This document shows positions 15,090-38,728 of a DNA stretch of 64,000 nt, piece by piece. Under the pieces are notes generated by a model, which was given only the letters and a program-made list of their open reading frames with translations, made no database searches and was not told the origin of the DNA. The DNA lies in NCBI RefSeq assembly GCF_018129085.1, contig NZ_JAAGBB010000011.1, positions 62,001-126,000 of the forward strand, given 5' to 3'. The DNA comes from Plastoroseomonas hellenica (lineage in GTDB: Bacteria > Pseudomonadota > Alphaproteobacteria > Acetobacterales > Acetobacteraceae). The stretch's first letter is position 1. Every line of letters starts with the position of its first letter. The position numbers were made by a program, and so were the translations under genes.

Positions 15090-18000
15090 GCTGCCTCCGC
15101 TATCCCGAGCTGCAGGTCACCTCGCACTTCAGCTTTCTGCGGGGCGCGTCCTCCTGTGAGGAACTGTTTTCCCAGGCGGCGCTCGCCGGAATCGAGGTGC
15201 TCGCCGTCGTCGATCGAAACTCGCTGGCTGGGATCGTCCGCGCTCATGAGGCCGCCAAGACCACAGGCGTCCGTCTCGTCGTCGGCTGCCGGCTCGACCT
15301 TGTCGATGGCACGTCAGTGCTCGTCTACCCGACCGACCGGCCCGCCTATTCGCGTCTCTGCCGGCTGCTCTCGCTCGGGAAACAGCGCGCCGGCAAGGCC
15401 AAGTGCCATCTCGAGTGGCCGGACCTCGTCGCCTACGGCGAAGGCCTCATCGTGGTCCTCGTGCCCGACCTGGCGGACGACGAGTGCGCGTTCCGTCTGC
15501 GGCGCCTGCGCGACGCATTCGGCGACCGCGCCTATCTGGCGTTGACCCTGCGCCGCCGGCCGAACGACCAGCTGCGGCTCCACGAGCTGTCGAACCTCGC
15601 CGCGCAGATGCGCGTGCCGACCGTGGTCACGAACGACGTGCTGTTTCACGAGCCGGGTCGCCGCATCCTGCAAGACGTGGTGACCTGCATCCGACACAAC
15701 GTCACGATCGACCAGCTCGGCGATCGTCGCGAGCGTCACGCGGACCGCTACATCAAGCCGCCTGAGGAGATGCATCGGCTGTTCAGCCGATATCCCGAGG
15801 CGCTCGCCAGAACGCTGCAGATCGCCGATCGCTGTCGCTTCAATCTCGACGAGCTCGCCTATCAATATCCGGAGGAACGTGACGACCCGGCGCTCACACC
15901 GCAGGAGACGCTGGCGACGCTCACCTGGGAAGGCGCTGCTCAGCGCTATCCCGAAGGCCTGCCCGATAGGGTGCGAGCGACCATCAGCCACGAACTGGCG
16001 CTGATCGAGAAGCTCGGCTACGCCCCCTACTTCCTGACCGTCAATTCGATCGTCCGCTTCGCGCGGTCGAAGGACATTCTCTGCCAGGGGCGCGGCTCAG
16101 CCGCCAATTCGGCCGTCTGCTATGTCCTGGGCATCACATCGATCGACCCGGGCCGCAACGACCTCCTGTTCGAGCGCTTCGTCTCCGAGGAGCGGCGCGA
16201 GCCGCCGGACATTGATGTCGATTTCGAGCACGAGCGACGTGAGATCGTCATGCAGTGGGTGTTCGACACTTATGGTCGTGATCACGCCGCGCTCTGCTCG
16301 ACCGTGATCCGCTATCGCACCAAGGGCGCCCTACGCGATGTCGGCAAGGCGCTCGGTCTGCCGGAAGATCTCATCCGCACCTTGTCCGGCCAGGTCTGGG
16401 GCTGGTCCGAAGAAGGCGTCGAGGATCGGCACGTTCAGGAGCTAAATCTCAACCTCGCCGACCGACGCCTTGGTCTGGTGCTCGATCTCGCCCGACAGCT
16501 CATGGGCACACCGCGACACCTCAGCCAGCATCCCGGCGGCTTCGTCCTGACCCATGATCGGCTTGATGATCTGGTGCCGATCGAGCCGGCCGCCATGAAG
16601 AATCGGCAGGTGATCGAGTGGGACAAGGACGACATCGACGCGCTGAAATTCATGAAGGTCGACGTGCTGGCGCTTGGCATGCTGACCTGCATGAAGAAGG
16701 GTCTCGATCTTCTGACCGAGCACAAAGGGATCACGCTCGACCTCGCGACCATCCCCGCGGAGGATCCACGCACCTACGCGATGATCCGGAAGGCCGACAC
16801 GCTCGGCACCTTCCAGATCGAATCCCGCGCGCAGATGTCGATGCTGCCGAGGCTCAAGCCGCGCACCTACTACGACCTCGTCGTCCAAGTCGCGATCGTC
16901 CGGCCCGGGCCGATCCAGGGCGACATGGTCCACCCGTATCTGCGCCGCCGCGAAGGGATTGAGCCGGTCCATTATCCAAAGCCGGAGCTGGAGAAGGTGC
17001 TGGGCAAAACCCTTGGGGTCCCCCTCTTCCAGGAACAGGCGATGCGTGTGGCCATCGAATGCGCGGGCTTCACGCCGGGCGAAGCCGACATGCTTCGCAA
17101 GTCGATGGCGACCTTCAAGTTCACCGGAGGCGTTTCGTCATTCAAGATGAAGCTGATCGACGGCATGGTTGCCAACGGATACGAGCGCGAGTTCGCCGAA
17201 CAGACCTTTAAGCAACTGGAGGGGTTCGGCTCATACGGATTTCCGGAAAGCCACGCAGCCTCTTTTGCGCTTATCGCCTATGCCAGCGCCTGGTTGAAGT
17301 GCTGGCATCCCGACGTCTTCTGCGCGGCATTGCTGAATTCACAACCCATGGGCTTCTATGCCCCCGCCCAGATCGTCAGGGACGCGATCGAGCACGGCGT
17401 CGACGTCCGGCCCGTCTGCGCGAACGCCTCGCGCTGGGACTGCACCTTGGAGTCGACCGAAGACGACAGCCGCTTCGCCGTGCGTCTGGGCTTGCGGATG
17501 GTCAAAGGACTCGCCAACGCACACGGGGCCGCGATCGTCGCCGCGCGGGCTGATCAGCAATATGCCTCGACCGACGATCTCTGGCGGCGCGCCAGCGTCC
17601 CGTCCGCCGCCCTCGTCCAGCTCGCCGAGGCCGACGCCTTCCGTCCGGGCTTGCAGCTCGCCCGCCGCGAGGCTCTATGGGCAATCAAGGCGCTGCGCGA
17701 CGAACCGCTTCCGCTGTTCGCAGCGGCGTCCGCACGCGAAGCCGCCATCGTATCCGAGGTGAATGAGCCGATGGTGTCGCTGCGGCCGATGACGACGGGC
17801 AGCGAGGTCGTCGAGGATTACGGGCATGTCGGCCTGACACTGAGGGCGCATCCCCTCAGCTTCCTCCGTGAGGATCTCCGGCGCCGGCGCATCATCAGCT
17901 GCGCCGAGGCCATGGCGACGCGCGACGGGCGCTGGGTCGAGGCGGCAGGCATCGTCCTCGTTCGCCAGCGCCCGGGCAGCGCGAAAGGCGTCATGTTCAT

Positions 18001-26465: not shown

Positions 26466-26599
26466 CCGGCAGGGGAACGGGGCTGCGGGACGCCGTCGTG
26501 CTCGGCGGATGCGTCAATCCATCGGAGGGGGACCGCGCCTCGGCCTTCGAGAGGGCGATCGGCCCACAAGCCGGCCAGCCGGGCAATGGCGGCGGCCGA

Positions 26600-26730
26600 C
26601 TATTTTCCGGCGGCGCGTGCCGCGCCTTTCCATCGCGAGACAAAATAGCCGGCCTTAGCCATCGAGCCCTGCGCTTGCGCTCCGGGTGCCCATCCGTCCG
26701 GCCCGTGGGCTTCGTCGCCATGAAGGCCGC
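26600..26730 (+). promoter_or_regulatory. Second leader family, copy A (before DUF2493 gene)
   Basis: In the 296-base gap before the DUF2493 gene. Stem CTATTTT (26600-26606)/AAAATAG (26642-26648) brackets a GC-rich segment and TCGCGAGACAA (26633-26643). Then come CCTTAGC, a hairpin based on GAGCCC...GGGTGC, and TCGCCAT-GAAGGCCGC near 26715-26730. The same elements in the same order occur at 29941-30064 before a DUF736 gene, with compensatory changes in the first stem. The rest of the gap shows nothing else. Confidence 0.65.
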
Positions 26731-26761
26731 GACGGTCGCGGTCCAACCGACGGAGCATCCC

Positions 26762-27685
26762 ATGCGCGAGCACGACGACTACGAACCGCACCACGCATCC
26801 TCACCCACCGACCATGTCCTCAACGAACTCCAGCTCCACGGCTACCGCCCCTTCGCCGACGAACCCGACCAGCGGCTTCTGCCCGATGGCAACGCGGTCT
26901 CGGGCGCCGTCGCCGACGTCTTCAACGCGCTGATCGGAACGCTGGAGGACACCCGTCTTGAGCCCGACCTCGACGATCTCCTCTGGTCAACCGTCAACGT
27001 CTTCCACCGCGCCACCGAGCGGATCGCCCGCGAGCTCGATGACAACGAGCAGGCCCAGAAGCGTTCCCAGCGCGAACAGGACGGCAGCGAGGTGAAGTCG
27101 GTCGAGCTGGAGCGCCAGATCGCCGAGGGCATGACGCTGATCGAACGTCAGAACGTCTTCGAGTTGATGCGCGACCAGGCCGCCGAGCACTATGAGCGCC
27201 AGGTCGGCAAGGCGTGGCTCCCCCGCAGCGGGTCGAAGGTCAACCACCGCAATCTCACCTCGGCGATGATCGACAGCCGCGACTTCCTCATGGCGAAGAA
27301 GCGCGCCGAGCAAGAGGTGCTGCTGCCGCCGGGTCCGAAGATCGTCGTCACCGGCGGGCTGGACTACGACGACCACCGCCTGATCTGGGCCAAGCTCGAC
27401 CAAGTGCATGAGAAGCACCCGGACATGGTGCTGGTCCACGGCAAGTCGCCGAAGGGCGCCGAAAAAATTGCATCGCTCTGGGCGAAGAACCGCAATGTCC
27501 CGCAGATCGGCTTCGCGCCCGACTGGACGAAGCACGGCCGGGCAGCGCCGTTCAAGCGCAATGACGAGATGCTGCAGATCGTGCCGAAGGGCGTGATGCA
27601 CTTCCCCGGCACGGGCATCAACGACAACCTCGCCGACAAGGCCAAGAAGCTCGGCATCCCGGTCTGGAAGTTCGACGGCGCGTAA
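26762..27685 (+). CDS. DUF2493 domain protein (DprA/SLOG-like fold)
   Basis: The start is taken at the ATG 26762, at the end of the leader; the open frame extends upstream to 26498 through the leader and is not coding there. The 307-residue protein has an N-terminal helical region with heptad-like Glu/Gln/Arg (ARELDDNEQAQKRSQREQ, residues 93-110) and a C-terminal DUF2493 domain (KIVVTGGLDYDDHRLIWAKLDQV, then LVHGKSPKGAEKIASLWAK). DUF2493 belongs to the SLOG/Rossmann nucleotide-binding group. It is a regular member of this ICE block, with unknown role. Confidence 0.85.
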   Translation: MREHDDYEPHHASSPTDHVLNELQLHGYRPFADEPDQRLLPDGNAVSGAVADVFNALIGTLEDTRLEPDLDDLLWSTVNVFHRATERIARELDDNEQAQKRSQREQDGSEVKSVELERQIAEGMTLIERQNVFELMRDQAAEHYERQVGKAWLPRSGSKVNHRNLTSAMIDSRDFLMAKKRAEQEVLLPPGPKIVVTGGLDYDDHRLIWAKLDQVHEKHPDMVLVHGKSPKGAEKIASLWAKNRNVPQIGFAPDWTKHGRAAPFKRNDEMLQIVPKGVMHFPGTGINDNLADKAKKLGIPVWKFDGA

Positions 27686-27728
27686 GCGCCGCCATCTTTC
27701 ACGTTCCCGCCCCGACAGACGAAGGCGT

Positions 27729-28433
27729 TCAAGGCTGCTGGCGCCAAAACTGCGTGCTGTAATTGTTCAGCCCGCGGCTATGAGAATCGACTGTCGCTTG
27801 GAAGGTGTCCGGGATCTTGTCCCCCTCACCACCTTCCCTGAAATAATCCCTGACCGAATAGAGCGCGCCTCTCATGAGGTGCTCCCAGGTTTGATAGAGC
27901 GTGTTTTGCAGTTCCTGCTCTTGCTTGGCGGCGCTCGGCTTCCGCTTGGGGATCGGCCTCGTATAGTCCGGACGCAGATCGACGTCATGGACGAAGGTTA
28001 TGTGGCTGAACTTCCACTCGTCGTCGACCGTCCCGCGCCACCGATAGCTCACCCTGACACTCAGATGTTTGCTGAAGCGATGCGGCGGCATGATCTGGTC
28101 ATCGACTATGAAAAGCTGCGCGTCCTTCTGTTCGGTTTCCAGTCGTCGCTTCATAGCGCCGACGGCGAAGGACAAATCACGTCCTGCGCGTCGAAGTGCG
28201 TCTCCTGTTTCCGCCCGCTTTTTCGGCGCCTTAGCCTTGCGGTGTTTCGCCAAGCTCTGATCGAATGAATGAAGCTTCGTTGCGATGTAGGAGCCGCAGT
28301 TCGCCAGAGCGAGACGGTGCAAATCACCCGACCGTTCCTCCCGGATCGCCTCCTCGATGAGCCTGTCCACCTCGCTGGCGTCGAGGGCCACGATGGCAAC
28401 CTGCTGATCTCGGGGGATGTTGATCTCTCCCAT
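27729..28433 (-). CDS. Hypothetical cargo protein, inserted against backbone orientation
   Basis: I do not recognise this family. With the ATG 28433 as start it has 234 residues; a longer frame reaches 28493. It is hydrophilic, with a basic region (HRKAKAPKKRAETGDALRRAGRD) and another at PKRKPSAAKQEQ, and no membrane segment or catalytic motif. It has a lower GC content than its neighbours and runs opposite to the backbone genes, converging on DUF2493, so it is probably a recently acquired cargo gene in a variable slot of the element. Several such orphan genes in ICE slots are defence proteins, but nothing here proves that. Confidence 0.7.
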   Translation of the reverse strand: MGEINIPRDQQVAIVALDASEVDRLIEEAIREERSGDLHRLALANCGSYIATKLHSFDQSLAKHRKAKAPKKRAETGDALRRAGRDLSFAVGAMKRRLETEQKDAQLFIVDDQIMPPHRFSKHLSVRVSYRWRGTVDDEWKFSHITFVHDVDLRPDYTRPIPKRKPSAAKQEQELQNTLYQTWEHLMRGALYSVRDYFREGGEGDKIPDTFQATVDSHSRGLNNYSTQFWRQQP

Positions 28434-28787
28434 GCCGTGTATCCTCGTTCTCCTGCTGACGCGTGGGTCTCCGCCGACCACCTCGGAGCTCAAGTCACAG
28501 ACGGCGAGTCACCCAGTGCAAGAATAGCCGACACGGAGTGAATTCGCACGGTGAAGCACATGAGGTCTCTGGACTGATTAGTGCCTCCACGTAGAGCAAA
28601 GCACCCCCGCTTATCTGCGCTGATCCTTGGTCGGATTGATCGCTTGACGCCATCAACCCGTAAAGGGTCGGCTATGCGAGCACGCCGCCACTTCGGCTGC
28701 GCCTGCGCGATGATTGCAGCGCTCACTCCGACACTCCGGGCGCCTGTCAGAGGGGGATGGTCCTCCGCTCGAACAGGAGCCGGATCG
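28434..28787. other. Intergenic region beside the cargo gene
   Basis: About 350 bases between the divergent cargo gene and the small gene at 28788. Open frames here have no family resemblance or ribosome-binding sites. It probably holds the divergent promoters; a TTGACG at 28644 could be a -35 element, but no clear -10 was found. Confidence 0.4.
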
Positions 28788-28955
28788 ATGTCCGTCAACG
28801 ACGCTCACGCCTTCGCCTTCAGCCTCGCCACCACGTTGATGGCGACCATCATCATCTTCCAGGCTGGTGACGGCACCCTCTCAGTTACGCCCGCCTGCGA
28901 GTACGACGGCGACCCCGCCGCCATCGTCCACGAAATCGATCCCTTCGCCCCCTGA
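28788..28955 (+). CDS. Small conserved-looking protein of the ICE backbone (55 aa)
   Basis: The ATG 28788 is placed well behind CAGGAGCCG, better than other starts in a longer frame. The product begins MSVNDAHAFAFSLATTLMATIIIFQAGDG and ends in an acidic tail with EIDPF. It looks like a small single-domain protein with a hydrophobic helix (about residues 8-25) that could be amphipathic. I cannot assign a function. It is co-directional with the membrane protein downstream. Confidence 0.55.
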   Translation: MSVNDAHAFAFSLATTLMATIIIFQAGDGTLSVTPACEYDGDPAAIVHEIDPFAP

Positions 28956-29098
28956 CCGGGGCGAGCCGGCGCGGCCGAGCGGAGATCACATGCGATTTCC
29001 GCTCCCGGCGCAGCCGGTTTTCGACTATATTTCGATCGCGCCGTGGTGGTGGTGGTGGAGGCGCAACCGTCAGACCTTTTCTCACGGAGGCCACCATC

Positions 29099-29542
29099 AT
29101 GATCATCCTCGCCATCCTCGTATCGCTGGCCGCCATCGGCCTACTCTGCTGGCTGCTGTTCACGCTGGCCGTGTTCGCGCTGCCGGCGTTCGCCGGCGTG
29201 ACCACCGGCGCCTGGGCGTATGGCACCGGCGCGGGCATCGTCGGCGCGATCGTCGTCGGCGCCGTCGCCGCCGGCGCCACGCTGGGCATCGGCCAGTTCC
29301 TGCTCCTCTTCGTCCGACTGATGTGGCTCAAGCTCGTCGTGGCCATCGCCTTTGTCGCCCCGGCGGCGATCGCCGGATTCCACGCCACCCATGGCATCGT
29401 GAAGCACCTGATGCCCTCGGAAGCGTGGCAGATCGCCTTCTCGATCATTGGCGCCATCGCAATCGGCATCACCGCCTTCGTTCGGATCGCTGGCATCGCG
29501 GCGGCACCGAGCCCGTCCGACCGGGATCTTGTCCAGGCCTGA
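29099..29542 (+). CDS. Small multi-pass membrane protein
   Basis: 147 residues with four or so hydrophobic segments: about 2-30 (LAILVSLAAIGLLCWLLF), 44-75 (a Gly/Ala/Val-rich helix GIVGAIVVGAVAAGATLG), 78-98 and 113-135. The ATG has a GGAGG site nine bases upstream. No catalytic motif is visible. A short GTG/GGT simple repeat (29043-29058) lies in its leader. It is in the ICE accessory block; whether it serves surface exclusion or another role cannot be told. Confidence 0.65.
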   Translation: MIILAILVSLAAIGLLCWLLFTLAVFALPAFAGVTTGAWAYGTGAGIVGAIVVGAVAAGATLGIGQFLLLFVRLMWLKLVVAIAFVAPAAIAGFHATHGIVKHLMPSEAWQIAFSIIGAIAIGITAFVRIAGIAAAPSPSDRDLVQA

Positions 29543-30102
29543 TCTTCGTCATCACCATCAGAGGGTCAGACTAGCGGTGGGCGTAGCGGCCCTGCCGCCT
29601 CATGGCGTTGCGACGGCGGGTGCGGCGCGGATCGAGGCTCGGCCCGGAGAAGCGGTCGTCGTTCGAGCGCTGCAGAGGCAGAGCGATGCCTCGGCGGCGC
29701 ACCGGACATTCGGCGCGGCGATCACCTTGAGCGCGGTGGAAGGTCAGGATGCAGCAGCGGCAGCCTGACGGGAGGAGACGAAGCGGTGAGCATCGATCGC
29801 GGTGTCTTGCCGGTAGCGCAGAGCCGCCATGGTCTCCGTCATCTGGCCGTCCAGAGACCGCTCCACACGGCCTCTTCAATGGCTTGATCTGGCCGAAGGC
29901 CGGCTTCGCCTCGATCGCCTATGACGCAACAGCCGCGTCAGACTTTCTTCCCCTGCCGGCTGCGCCGCCATTCCTCGCGAGACAAGAAAGTCCTCCTTAG
30001 CTGTCGAGCCCCTTCGGGGTGCGCCGTCGATCGCCTCCGGCCTGCCGATCGCCATCGAGGCCGCAATGGTGCGGGCTCGGGAACGGAGAACGGAGACTTA
30101 CC
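29543..30102. other. Long gene-poor stretch with structured leader at its 3' end
   Basis: 560 bases without a supported gene. Frames on both strands are Arg/Pro-rich and of the kind GC-rich non-coding DNA produces. The last 160 bases hold leader copy B (29941-30064). The first 400 bases contain no repeat or motif that I can support. Confidence 0.5.
29941..30064 (+). promoter_or_regulatory. Second leader family, copy B (before DUF736 gene)
   Basis: Stem GACTTTCTT (29941-29949)/AAGAAAGTC (29984-29992), with TCGCGAGACAA at 29975-29985, then CCTTAGC, the hairpin GAGCCCC-TTC-GGGGTGC (about 30006-30022) and TCGCCATCGAGGCCGC (about 30049-30064). It is the counterpart of 26600-26730. Two positions of the first stem differ from copy A on both sides so that pairing is kept. 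Confidence 0.65.
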
Positions 30103-30429
30103 ATGGCGACCATCGGCACCTTCAAGAAGTCCGGCTCGAACGAGTTCACCGGCGAAATCGTCACCCTCAGCGTCCAGGCCAAAAACGTGCGCATCGTCCC
30201 CGACACCCGCGCCACTGGCGAGAACGCCCCCAGCCACCGGGTCCTGGTCGGCCGCGCCGAGATCGGCGCCGCCTGGTCCAAGCGCTCAAACGAGGGCCGC
30301 GATTATCTGGGCCTCAAGCTCGACGATCCGAGCTTCAACGCCCCGATCTACGCCAACCTCTTCGACGACGAGGAAGCCGAGACCTTCTCGCTGATCTGGT
30401 CCCGCCCCAACGGCCGGCGCGGCGACTGA
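30103..30429 (+). CDS. DUF736 domain protein, copy 1
   Basis: 108 residues, starting MATIGTFKK behind CGGAGACTTACC. The DUF736 signature is complete: an N-terminal beta strand with FTGEIVTLSV, then a conserved GAAWSKRSNEGRDYLGLKLDDPSFNAPIYANLF and IWSRPNGRR. DUF736 proteins are small and found almost only on conjugative elements of alpha- and betaproteobacteria; their role is unknown. A paralogue lies at 35638 inside the transfer operon. A strong hairpin follows at 30440. Confidence 0.9.
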   Translation: MATIGTFKKSGSNEFTGEIVTLSVQAKNVRIVPDTRATGENAPSHRVLVGRAEIGAAWSKRSNEGRDYLGLKLDDPSFNAPIYANLFDDEEAETFSLIWSRPNGRRGD

Positions 30430-35637: not shown

Positions 35638-35976
35638 ATGTCCCTGATCGGTCAATTTAGCCGCACCAAGACGGGCTATGCCGGGCGCATCAGAACGCTT
35701 GGCCTCGACGCCGAGCTGGTGCTCGTGCCCGCCGAGCACTCCGATGCCGAGAACGCTCCCGACTATCGCGTCCATCTCGGGTCTGACGACGATGGCCCGG
35801 AGGTCGGGGCCGGCTGGAAACGGACCGGCGAGAAGGCTGGCGATTACGTCTCGCTGCAGCTCGACGATCCAACGCTCAGTCATCCGATCCGCGCCAACCT
35901 GTTCCAGTCGGCCGACGACAAATCCGCCTGGGGCCTGCACTGGACCCGCCCGCCCAAGCGCAGCGAGCGGGACTGA
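35638..35976 (+). CDS. DUF736 domain protein, copy 2
   Basis: 112 residues; the ATG follows TACGGAGGCAAATC. It has the same domain as the protein at 30103 (MSLIGQFSRTKTGYAGRI, GAGWKRTGEKAGDYVSLQLDDP, ANLFQ, LHWTRPPKR) with moderate identity. It is part of the transfer operon, between traF and the lytic transglycosylase. The function is unknown; carrying two diverged copies is typical of these ICEs. Confidence 0.9.
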   Translation: MSLIGQFSRTKTGYAGRIRTLGLDAELVLVPAEHSDAENAPDYRVHLGSDDDGPEVGAGWKRTGEKAGDYVSLQLDDPTLSHPIRANLFQSADDKSAWGLHWTRPPKRSERD

Positions 35977-36744: not shown

Positions 36745-36817
36745 GCGCTTTCGCACTCCATGCGGCGTTGTCGGGCTCTGGCGTAGGATTGACCGGAGAG
36801 CGGGGCAGCGCAGGCAC

Positions 36818-36898
36818 CACAACCGCACGATGGCAGGATAAAGGGCCGCGACGTGCGGCTCTGTGCGGTTGTGCTTTTTCAACGGGTTATGGCCCGTT
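36818..36898 (-). other. oriT: Putative origin of transfer (oriT), IncP-type nic
   Basis: In the 244-base gap before the relaxase gene. A perfect 11-base inverted repeat CACAACCGCAC (36818-36828)/GTGCGGTTGTG (36863-36873) encloses the minus-strand sequence TATCCTG/C (36840-36833), which fits the IncP/MOBP nic consensus YATCCTG/Y; the cut would lie between 36834 and 36833. An inner dyad GCCGC/GCGGC (36845-36859) and a further repeat AACGGG/CCCGTT (36881-36898) follow. The neighbouring relaxase is of the matching type. Confidence 0.7.
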
Positions 36899-36988
36899 TG
36901 CGCGAGGTGCGCCTGATCGGCACAGCCTGCGCGCACGGCGCTTTCCCAATGATTTCCTCGGCTTTGCGCGATGTGCGGAGCAGCGGCC

Positions 36989-38728
36989 ATGAGCGCCGAG
37001 GACGATTTCCGCATTCGGCCAGGCCGCATCCGCTCGACCCGCGCGCAACAGGTCCGACCCTTCATCGCGCAGGCGCTCGCCGCCGCCCAGAAGGCCGGCG
37101 GCGCCGTCTCCCAGCCAGGAAGGATCGGTCCTGGCAACCGCTCGCGCTTCGGCCGCGGCCAGCGCGCGGCGGTGCAGGCCAACCGGGTCCTAACCGCCCG
37201 TTCGCGCGGAGCCGTCGTTAAGGCCCGCGTCGTGCGCCACGGCGGACGCAACGCGCCGCTCGGCACGCACCTCAACTATCTGCGTCGAGAGGGCGTGACC
37301 CGGGATGGAGAGAAGGCCCGGCTGTTCGGCCCCGGCGGCGATGATGCCGATCCCAAGGCGTTCGCGGAGCGGTGCGAGGATGACCGGCATCATTTCCGCT
37401 TCATCGTCTCGCCCGACGACGCGCTGGAGATGGCCGACCTCAAGGGATTCGCCCGAGAGCTGGTCGGCCAGATGGAGAAGGATCTCGGCACCCGGCTCGA
37501 CTGGGTGGCGGTCGATCACTGGAACACCGAGCATCCTCATGTCCATCTGATCGTGCGCGGCGTCCGCGACGATGGCGAGAACCTCGTCATCTCCCGCGAC
37601 TACATCAAGGAGGGCATGCGCGACCGCGCGCGCGACCTCATCACCCAGGAGCTCGGACCGCGCACTGACCAAGAGATCCGTCGCACCCTCGAGCGCCAGG
37701 TCGAGTCCGAGCGCTGGACCCATCTCGATCGCCAGCTCACGCGCGACGCTTACAGAACCGGGGTCGTTGATCTCGCCCCGCAGCCCGATCGACAGCCCGA
37801 CGAATTCCACGCCCTGAAGGTCGGGCGCCTGCGCAAGCTGGAAACGATGGGACTCGCCGACCAGGTCGGGCCCGGCCAATGGACGATCTCCGAGAAGGCG
37901 GAGGCGACCCTGCGCGAGCTCGGCGAGCGCGGCGACATCATCAAGCGCATGCATCGCGCGCTGACCGACCGTGGGATCGAGCGCGGCGCGGCGGGCTATG
38001 TGCTCGCCAGCGAAAGCCTGAACGACCCCGTCGTCGGCCGGCTGGTGACACGAGGCCTCGACGACGAGCTCAAGGGCACGGCCTTCGCCGTGGTCGATGG
38101 TGTGGACGGCCGCACCCATCACATCAAGCTGCCCGATCTCGAGGCCGCCGGTGACAGCGCGCCGGGTTCGATCGTCGAGCTGCGCAAGTTCGATGATGCG
38201 AAAGGCCAGCGGCGCGTCGCACTCGCCGTGCGCTCCGATCTCGACATTTCTGCCCAGGTCACCGCGACCGGCGCGACCTGGCTCGACCGGCAGGCGATCG
38301 CCCGCGAGCCCGTGGCCCTTGGCGGTGGCGGGTTCGGCGCCGAGGTGCGGGACGCGATGGACCGCCGCGCCGAACATCTGATTGAGCAGCGTCTGGCTGA
38401 GCGCCATGGCCGCAGCGTCATCTTCTCTCGCAACCTCATCGACACGCTGCGTCAGCGTGAGGTCGAGGCGCTGGGCGAAAAGCTTGCAGCCGAGACCGGG
38501 CGTCCCTTCACCAAGGCCGGGATCGGGGAATATGTCGCCGGCGCCTATCGGCAGCGCATCGCCCTCGCTTCCGGCCGCTTCGCGATGATCGACGACGGTC
38601 TCGGCTTCCAGCTCGTGCCCTGGTCGCCCTCGCTCGAAAAGCACCTTGGCCAGCACGTCTCCGGCGTCGCCCGCGGCGATGGCGCGGTCGACTGGAGTTT
38701 TGGCCGCAAGCGCGGCCTCGGACTGTAG
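36989..38728 (+). CDS. rlxS: MOBP-type relaxase (RlxS/VirD2-like, DUF3363)
   Basis: The start is the ATG 36989 (MSAEDDFRIRPGRIRS); 579 residues. The relaxase domain lies in the first 230 residues: RHHFRFIVSPDDA, then the metal-binding histidines HPHVH at 182-186 in NTEHPHVHLIVRG, with the DYIKEGMR region just after. The candidate Tyr is in THLNYLRREG. The rest is the DUF3363 region (RAGYVLASESLNDP to FQLVPW). It would nick the oriT immediately upstream and lead the strand into the channel via TraG. Confidence 0.92.
   Translation: MSAEDDFRIRPGRIRSTRAQQVRPFIAQALAAAQKAGGAVSQPGRIGPGNRSRFGRGQRAAVQANRVLTARSRGAVVKARVVRHGGRNAPLGTHLNYLRREGVTRDGEKARLFGPGGDDADPKAFAERCEDDRHHFRFIVSPDDALEMADLKGFARELVGQMEKDLGTRLDWVAVDHWNTEHPHVHLIVRGVRDDGENLVISRDYIKEGMRDRARDLITQELGPRTDQEIRRTLERQVESERWTHLDRQLTRDAYRTGVVDLAPQPDRQPDEFHALKVGRLRKLETMGLADQVGPGQWTISEKAEATLRELGERGDIIKRMHRALTDRGIERGAAGYVLASESLNDPVVGRLVTRGLDDELKGTAFAVVDGVDGRTHHIKLPDLEAAGDSAPGSIVELRKFDDAKGQRRVALAVRSDLDISAQVTATGATWLDRQAIAREPVALGGGGFGAEVRDAMDRRAEHLIEQRLAERHGRSVIFSRNLIDTLRQREVEALGEKLAAETGRPFTKAGIGEYVAGAYRQRIALASGRFAMIDDGLGFQLVPWSPSLEKHLGQHVSGVARGDGAVDWSFGRKRGLGL

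Follow-up and report, generated by a model that had tools for sequence, protein, structure and literature searches.

Single-stranded DNA promoters of the Frpo/ssi type have been described for F and ColIb-P9 plasmids, where imperfect hairpins are present in several copies per element upstream of several leading-region operons, including those with anti-restriction genes, and where the early genes of F-type plasmids lie so that the transferred strand is used and the stems rebuild -35 and -10 boxes (PMC9849209; PMC11541004). In the pLS20 family of Bacillus, EGeRS1 is a conserved, inverted-repeat-rich block of 400–600 bp without a recognisable promoter, which is repeated in one plasmid directly upstream of the RBS of ardC and other establishment operons. 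The authors stated that the transferred strand is there the non-template strand, and therefore considered an ssDNA promoter highly unlikely (PMC8708921). Besides, Rfam contains cis-regulatory motifs, such as DUF3577, that are named after a downstream gene and form structured blocks upstream of genes of unknown function.

In a 64,000-nucleotide stretch of the Plastoroseomonas hellenica genome (contig NZ_JAAGBB010000011.1; the window), an initial annotation had pointed to two covarying leaders, A and B, before a DUF2493 and a DUF736 gene of an ICE. This observation was confirmed, and the structure was shown to be larger than reported. A and B aligned across the whole of the block that had been described, were homologous, and ended at the ribosome-binding sites (RBS) of the two genes. 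The combined motif GAGACAANNNAGNCNNCCTTAGC was found twice in the window, at A and B, against 0.03 expected, and a related pattern was found twice in the 7.28 Mb genome. The first stem was present as CTATTTT/AAAATAG in A and as GACTTTCTT/AAGAAAGTC in B (P1), with the compensatory changes that had been noticed. The shared CCTTAGC is explained by an outer helix, P0, as its GC and the next bases form the 3′ strand of this helix (ATGGC/GCCAT in A and ACAGC/GCTGT in B), which also covaries. However, the coordinates given were too short: the TCGCCAT..GAGGCCGC end is one strand of a long-range stem (PL) whose other strand lies about 50–75 nt upstream of P0, so that each element runs from an approximate start to the ATG of its gene (Table 1), and the stem and hairpin originally seen are the tip of a giant hairpin closed by PL. 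MFE z-scores of the original segments alone were 0.36 and 0.28; with the full arms they were -3.0 (B) and -2.2 (A) as sense RNA and -3.6 and -4.2 as template-strand DNA. Only these two forms were folded, so the z-scores do not tell the strands apart.

Table 1. Features of leaders A and B and of associated genes (positions in the window; starts of the whole elements are approximate).
Position	Strand	Feature	Details
26512..26761	+	Leader A (DUF2493/YAcAr gene), whole giant-hairpin element	Folding; homologues found
26536..26585	+	A, 5′ arm of PL	26536-26548 pairs 26722-26734 (85%); 26562-26585 pairs 26687-26710 (75%)
26586..26662	+	A, apical hairpin	P0 26586-26590/26658-26662; P1 26600-26606/26642-26648; P2 26612-26617/26621-26626; covariation
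26666..26687	+	A, side hairpin P3	GCCC..GGGT; sequence and covariation analysis
26687..26734	+	A, 3′ arm of PL	Pairing with 5′ arm
26725..26744	+	A, local hairpin P4	GGCCGCGA-CGG-TCGCGGTCC; uses the same GGCC as PL and so excludes part of it; sequence and family P4 scan
26762..27685	+	DUF2493 gene	Pfam YAcAr, SLOG family
29825..30102	+	Leader B (DUF736 gene), whole giant-hairpin element	Folding and pairing
29825..29833	+	B, outermost arm	Complementary to 30100-30108, which holds the DUF736 start codon; family-wide support moderate
29858..29895	+	B, 5′ arm of PL	CCGCTCCA, CGGCCTC, ATGGC, GATC, GGCCG
29929..30004	+	B, apical hairpin	P0 29929-29933/30000-30004; P1 29941-29949/29984-29992; P2 29954-29960/29964-29970; covariation
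30008..30020	+	B, side hairpin P3	GCCCC TTC GGGGT; sequence and covariation analysis
30041..30073	+	B, 3′ arm of PL	Pairing with 5′ arm
30059..30076	+	B, alternative local hairpin P4	GGCCGC AATGGT GCGGGC
30103..30429	+	DUF736 gene	PF05284
36971..38728	+	Relaxase-like ORF	Named only from synteny with locus L033; both leaders point towards it

A search of the window against Rfam 15 (4227 families) gave no match at gathering score over the leaders, and a search of five other stretches gave only ar15, away from the leader. In E-value mode, CrfA (26505-26629) and DUF3577 (26536-26629; 18.8 bits, gathering 42.6, E 0.39) overlapped the 5′ half of leader A far below their gathering scores, and an HDV-like and an HTT-AS1 match at A and a flavi_FSE match at B were weaker still; these matches are at chance level, and DUF3577 gave no match at B. 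The exact pattern GAGACAAN{3,14}CCTTAGC was too strict and mostly background at class level (14 of 289 genomes, 15 places against 21 for the reversed control). In contrast, a model of the family matched 113 of 299 genomes of the order, 26 of 385 of the class and 29 of 299 of the phylum, as well as Ti/Ri-type and rhizobial plasmids, with up to 9 matches in one genome, usually ending within about 10–40 nt of a start codon. Structured homologues in related elements, the absence of which would have counted against the family, were thus found. Model R1 was trained on 17 DUF736-type copies, and A7 and A8 are fitted to its structure.

In 67 distinct copies, 29 of 33 pairs showed double changes (264 cells, against 65±6 in shuffles). 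In a separate covariation test, one of five measures, the number of further pair types (17), did not exceed shuffles (17.2). The non-redundant sets used in the different analyses differ slightly by rule (62, 61, 59, 57, 56). For PL, complementarity of true arms was 41.5 against 28.8 (sd 7.0) for arms swapped between 59 copies (2 of 61 left out). A, B and ten of ten divergent copies selected for folding formed one giant imperfect hairpin with a branched tip. The first nested model had used a local hairpin (P4a, columns 138–161) that appears to compete with, and partly stand in for, the long-range stem.

Among 49 copies, the downstream gene was DUF736 in 26, DUF2493 in 10, ArdC (anti-restriction) in 4, a gene for an unknown protein of 76–81 aa in 4, and another gene in 5. 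DUF736 and DUF2493 were assigned by HMM/phmmer and the rest by eye, with ArdC confirmed by Pfam for 3 of the 4. The DUF736 loci were the best 80 of 571 confirmed, so tallies that include them are biased to DUF736. ArdC of R388 is needed in the recipient, not the donor (PMC7213743). A relaxase was found downstream on the same strand in 9 of 10 stretches with one in view, although locus L119 has a MobA/MobL gene on the opposite strand and orientation is mixed in genomes G956 and G969. An RSF1010-type nic-like TTGCGCCCT was found on the minus strand of the traC-traA gap in 3 of 4 Ti-type plasmids, and was lacking in locus L117; with the polarity assumed for this motif, the transferred strand would be the template strand of the genes.

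Mismatches at paired positions were compared, a structured sense RNA being expected to favour G-U over A-C, which corresponds to G-T in the template strand. In P0/P1, A-C was found 41 times and G-U 7 times, but part of this asymmetry comes from two positions with a mostly fixed A, without which the counts are 17 against 6. Isolated PL mismatches were A-C 30 and G-U 14, against 47 and 49 in swapped arms (4 of 61 copies left out), and within clusters A-C 77 and G-U 55, against 14 and 27 in the two RNase P clusters (Fisher p 0.008); as the sequences are related, the p-values are optimistic. The opposite was seen in tRNA (G-U 12, A-C 3; 19 tRNA-Lys of 34) and in clustered RNase P, but the RNA control is not clean, since all 27 RNase P as one group gave G-U 25 and A-C 23 (27 of 30 loci used, 3 near contig ends left out; the cluster count uses the 14 in clusters of three or more). 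P3 keeps a G-U-type closing pair (78 of 93 cells with letters), and the P4 scan was neutral (G-U 25, A-C 22), though in about a third of its rows it picked another local hairpin. G-U is thus not favoured over A-C at paired positions, with P3 as an exception, which suggests, without proving it, that the template strand, probably the transferred single strand, is what folds.

The interpretation offered by the initial annotation, a cis-regulatory RNA family giving common post-transcriptional control of several ICE accessory genes, was partly supported. A genuine covarying structured family shared by several genes is supported, so common control is likely, but it is not established that the working molecule is a sense RNA acting post-transcriptionally, and the genes are better described as leading-region or establishment genes. 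What the analysis itself shows is the fold in the copies examined and its end at the RBS; everything on activity, including initiation of transcription on a single strand and silence in the resident state, is inferred from sequence and by analogy. Our tentative explanation, held at somewhat less than even confidence, is that the leaders are copies of a control element of about 250–300 bp for establishment (early recipient) genes of conjugative elements, working like Frpo or EGeRS1. In this view, when the element enters a new cell as single-stranded DNA, the transferred strand, which would be the template strand of these genes, folds into the hairpin and gives a duplex-like start platform for transcription of ArdC, DUF736, DUF2493 and small early proteins, and once the complementary strand is made the hairpin is lost and expression stops. 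Read-through messages from upstream promoters would carry the same hairpin, with the RBS partly hidden, and so stay quiet. No sigma70-like -35/-10 was found above shuffled level (best score 7.31 real, 7.43 shuffled; 0 of 61 copies with 10 or more of 12 matches; E. coli consensus only), which speaks against this explanation, as does the position next to the RBS, which suits an mRNA leader. A further-reaching version, which we consider unlikely though not excluded, is a previously undescribed, widely spread class of single-stranded-DNA switch: the incoming template strand would fold into a branched giant hairpin without canonical -35/-10 boxes, be recognised by its conserved tip, and fire an establishment regulon (ArdC, DUF736, DUF2493, small unknown proteins) on rhizobial, Ti/Ri-type and other conjugative elements, while the same inverted repeat silences read-through mRNA by hiding the RBS.

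A sense-strand RNA leader remains possible and is only slightly less favoured than the explanation above. Here the message would start upstream, the giant hairpin would hide the RBS, and a protein, a small RNA or the P4/PL switch would open it. In 59 copies the SD was predicted to be unpaired with probability 0.19 in the full leader, 0.33 in a 5′-truncated one and 0.29 with a shuffled leader (SD below 0.3 in 46, 28 and 32 copies), a modest effect. The outer arm was more complementary to the SD/start region than swapped arms (24.5 against 20.4, sd 4.0; 16 of 56 above the 95th percentile; of 61 copies, 4 were left out by hand and 1 by the SD rule, and the SD and ATG pairing counts of this test have no control of their own). 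PL and P4 compete for the same GGCCGC strand, and as RNase P as one group shows no G-U excess either, lack of one does not exclude RNA. The wobble asymmetry and the absence of an Rfam match at the leaders argue against this reading. An antisense RNA from the opposite strand that pairs with the message and blocks translation, like plasmid copy-number antisense RNAs, would share the wobble asymmetry but is improbable, as it does not explain co-occurrence with leading-region genes; weak reverse-strand model matches over strong copies (e.g., 29852-30009 minus, E 0.016) are expected of any inverted repeat and add little. A single-strand initiation (primer RNA) site for the complementary strand, placed before early genes only by proximity to oriT, is the least likely, for although Frpo is reported to serve both transcription and primer synthesis (Masai and Arai, 1997), priming would not need so many copies ending this close to start codons.

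Other readings were rejected. A coding origin of the conserved 3′ block (open frame through A) was dropped because, by eye, indels in homologues shift the frame and one copy lacks the ATG, and a simple anti-SD in the linker because, by eye, some A-type copies (loci L034 and L048) do not keep it. DUF736 as an RNA-binding autoregulator gained no support: the AlphaFold2 model is all-beta (pLDDT 85), but Foldseek against the PDB gave nothing at E<=0.001. A sigma54 reading of TGG-N10-GC was considered by eye and was not conserved.

How conjugative elements outside the enterobacteria switch on anti-restriction and other early genes in a recipient is largely unknown. The present element is common, is located on Ti/Ri-type plasmids, rhizobial plasmids and ICEs, and marks a set of genes, so it gives a search handle for new anti-defence genes, with DUF736, DUF2493 and several tiny proteins as candidates, and makes the question of single-stranded expression in Alphaproteobacteria directly testable.

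Compared to the Rfam motifs named after a downstream gene, the leaders are likewise structured blocks, but no match to DUF3577 above threshold was obtained. Like Frpo, the element folds, in its single-stranded form, into a stable imperfect hairpin upstream of genes whose leading-region position is inferred, and is present in several copies; use of the transferred strand is here inferred from relaxase position and the nic-like motif. It is not a Frpo member, as no -35/-10 boxes were found in the stem with the E. coli consensus, and it has a branched tip with conserved loops and occurs mostly in Alphaproteobacteria. Like EGeRS1, it is a repeated inverted-repeat block immediately upstream of the RBS of ardC and other establishment genes, with no recognisable promoter, but it is shorter (about 250–300 bp), and here the template strand is inferred to be the likely transferred one.

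The initial annotation had claimed that two similar leaders precede a DUF2493 gene (leader A) and a DUF736 gene (leader B), that they share a stem changed on both strands, and that they represent a second cis-regulatory RNA family. The observation itself was confirmed. Pairwise alignment showed the ordered blocks in both leaders, the combined core motif occurred only at A and B in the window, and just these two were found by motif in the genome itself. By Pfam search the two genes were DUF736 (PF05284) and YAcAr (PF10686, the DUF2493/SLOG type). No match in the window was found in Rfam 15 at gathering scores, and a search by E-value gave only matches far below them. The interpretation was supported in part, as the leaders do form a large, covarying family, while the mismatch data lean towards a fold of the template strand rather than of a sense RNA.

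The family was found to be large. Blastn detected B-like sequence in 226 plasmid records and A-like sequence in 43, among them the Ri plasmid pRi1724 and another plasmid with Ti-type transfer genes, pAtS4c. A search of genome contigs with the DUF736 protein contributed the best 80 of 571 confirmed loci, and a nucleotide profile found 162 copies in 97 of 103 sequences searched, most of them running up to a DUF736 or DUF2493 start. A covariance model (R1) built from 17 copies matched 113 of 299 genomes of the order, 26 of 385 of the class and 29 of 299 of the phylum at E<=0.001, with the window's own genome included in each sample. Four of the 29 phylum-level genomes lie outside the class: the 5 copies in three of these (G965, G808, and G1062) precede DUF736, and the copy in the fourth (G893) precedes a 69-residue frame with ArdC sequence further on.

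The structure was shown to covary. In the 17 seed copies, 10 of 33 pairs and 29 cells showed double changes, compared to 9.7 (sd 2.3) in shuffles and 0-5 for slid partners, although the number of further pair types did not exceed shuffles in this set (17 against 17.2). In 67 distinct copies of the second set, 29 of 33 pairs and 264 cells showed double changes (shuffles 64.9, sd 6.4), with 69 further pair types (shuffles 51.8) and a covariation score of 0.341 against 0.112. These alignments are fitted to the structure, which inflates the numbers, but slid versions scored only 0.03-0.07. The tip is a hairpin P0-P1-P2 with conserved loops (GCAA; CC; TTCC..TCGCG..CAA), and the A/T-rich stem P1 changes sequence freely while staying paired, as TTTCTT, TATTTT, TGATTT, GAAATTT, and AAAACTT types all occur with exact partners. 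Some leaders (in the sequences L083, L087, L096-L098, L110, L055, and L068) carry an inserted palindrome of the CCACCCCACGCG..CGCGGGGACCCC type inside a hairpin loop at the tip of P2 or P3, as if a small mobile repeat prefers these loops.

The element was also larger than initially annotated. A listing of the upstream and downstream ends of divergent copies showed that the conserved GATCGCCAT(C)GAGGCCGC block is one strand of a long-range stem (PL), whose partner lies 50-75 nt before P0. Complementarity of true arms exceeded that of arms swapped between copies (41.5 against 28.8, sd 7.0, highest swap 47; 59 copies). The ten divergent copies chosen for folding were all predicted to form one giant hairpin with a branched tip, as judged by eye. 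For B and A, the full segments gave z = -3.0 and -2.2, respectively, as sense RNA and -3.6 and -4.2 as template-strand DNA. The stem often extends into the SD and start codon, as in B and, on the family level, with a complementarity of 24.5 compared to 20.4 (sd 4.0) for swapped arms and the SD mostly paired in 33 of 56 copies, but this outer part is weaker evidence. A local hairpin P4 with an AUGG-type loop competes with PL for the same GGCCGC strand; P4 showed no double changes in the seed set.

In 49 copies, chiefly from the class-wide search, the gene behind the element was DUF736 in 26, DUF2493 in 10, ArdC in 4, an unknown protein of 76-81 residues in 4 and other genes in 5, the last three categories being assigned by eye; Pfam confirmed ArdC for 3 of the 4. 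Among 200 distinct copies of all sets, 127 preceded DUF736, 58 DUF2493, 5 ArdC and 4 the small unknown protein, and 6 had no gene assigned, these counts being biased by the DUF736 search. Weaker matches to the model ended just before the ArdC or metallopeptidase genes of pOC167 and pAtS4c (E 0.0046 and 0.12), and the ArdC leader of the sequence L178 was similar by blastn to the DUF736 leader of Roseibium (E 4e-7). ArdC is an anti-restriction protein that R388 needs in the recipient (PMC7213743). The 76-81 residue family, found in the sequences L178, L180, L179, and L187, has a MSWDEY-like motif, and the two members scanned had no Pfam match; it is a candidate anti-defence gene. Two further proteins without a Pfam match follow leader copies in one genome (G789) with seven listed matches, and in L179 an ArdC start behind a leader is cut after a few codons by what looks like a transposase gene. 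A second DUF736 gene in the transfer region of the window, 38-39% identical to the first, had no model match in front of it.

Coordinates of features in the window and in other sequences carrying the element
Sequence	Position	Strand	Feature
Window	35641-35973		Second DUF736 gene
Window	36745-36970		Intergenic gap before the relaxase-like ORF; candidate oriT
Window	36818-36828/36863-36873		11-nt perfect inverted repeat within this gap
Window	36971-38728		Relaxase-like ORF
L178	870-1097	minus	Member of the 76-81 residue protein family
L178	81-272	minus	64-residue protein behind a leader copy
L179	2732-2923	minus	64-residue protein behind a leader copy
L179	about 15900-16220		Interrupted ArdC start behind a leader
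L199 (plasmid pAtS4c)	672-781	minus	ar15 alphaproteobacterial sRNA (Rfam RF02345), about 17 kb from the leader
L280	836-998 and 4499-4661		DUF736 cassettes with leaders, in inverted orientation

In a sense RNA, G-U should outnumber A-C at paired positions. This was the case in tRNA stems (12 to 3; 34 tRNAs, 19 of them Lys) and within two RNase P clusters (27 to 14; 14 sequences), but not when all 27 RNase P were taken as one group (25 to 23). In the leaders the reverse was found: G-U to A-C was 7 to 41 in P0/P1 (6 to 17 without two positions whose A is mostly fixed), 14 to 30 for isolated mismatches in PL (swapped control 49 to 47), and 55 to 77 for within-cluster changes (p 0.008 compared to the RNase P clusters, although relatedness of the sequences makes the p-values optimistic). 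The RNase P clusters read on their wrong strand gave 18 to 28, which is close to the leaders. P3, with a nearly fixed G-U-type pair, does not follow this pattern, and the scan of P4 was neutral (25 to 22). An A-C on the sense strand is a G-T on the template strand, so the data lean towards a fold of the template strand.

In the window, both leaders point towards the relaxase-like ORF. Of 16 annotated plasmid stretches (two of one plasmid) plus the window, ten showed a relaxase or mobilisation protein, which was downstream on the same strand in nine (in one of these it is a DUF3363 protein, a relaxase) and opposite in one (a cut MobA/MobL gene). In three of four Ti-type plasmids, a TTGCGCCCT resembling the nic core of RSF1010 was found on the minus strand of the traC-traA gap; about 0.4 matches are expected by chance in each whole stretch. 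L117 lacked it. With the polarity of the RSF1010 motif, the transferred strand would be the template of these genes, and they would enter first. Grouped copies shared orientation in 18 of 18 groups of the class-wide search, but two genomes of the phylum-wide search showed mixed copies, one of them an inverted duplicate; the leaders of the two DUF736 cassettes in L280, about 3.7 kb apart, were alike in all letters compared.

In the literature searched, DUF736 was mentioned in two papers, in one of them as a gene present on all the Mesorhizobium ICEs compared there, and a search of that paper for a leader gave no result. Further searches for a leader or ssDNA promoter of this kind listed nothing on it, as judged by titles and abstract beginnings of the entries seen. 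Within these searches the family is undescribed.

Frpo in F folds as single-stranded DNA, rebuilds -35 and -10 boxes and drives early, transient expression of leading genes (PMC9849209; PMC11541004). The copies described here showed no such boxes above chance, and we therefore do not classify them as Frpo. The fold and the set of genes served are demonstrated by the present analysis, while the strand that folds, the timing of expression and the initiation of transcription are inferred. Hiding of the RBS may act as a second layer, as the SD was predicted to be unpaired with a probability of 0.19 in full leaders, compared to 0.33 in truncated and 0.29 in shuffled leaders. EGeRS1 of Bacillus pLS20 is the nearest in layout, being an inverted-repeat block on the RBS of ardC and other establishment operons, without a recognisable promoter (PMC8708921), but there the transferred strand is non-template. 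We therefore tentatively propose a single-strand-activated establishment switch that would work like Frpo in place and time and that looks like EGeRS1 in anatomy.
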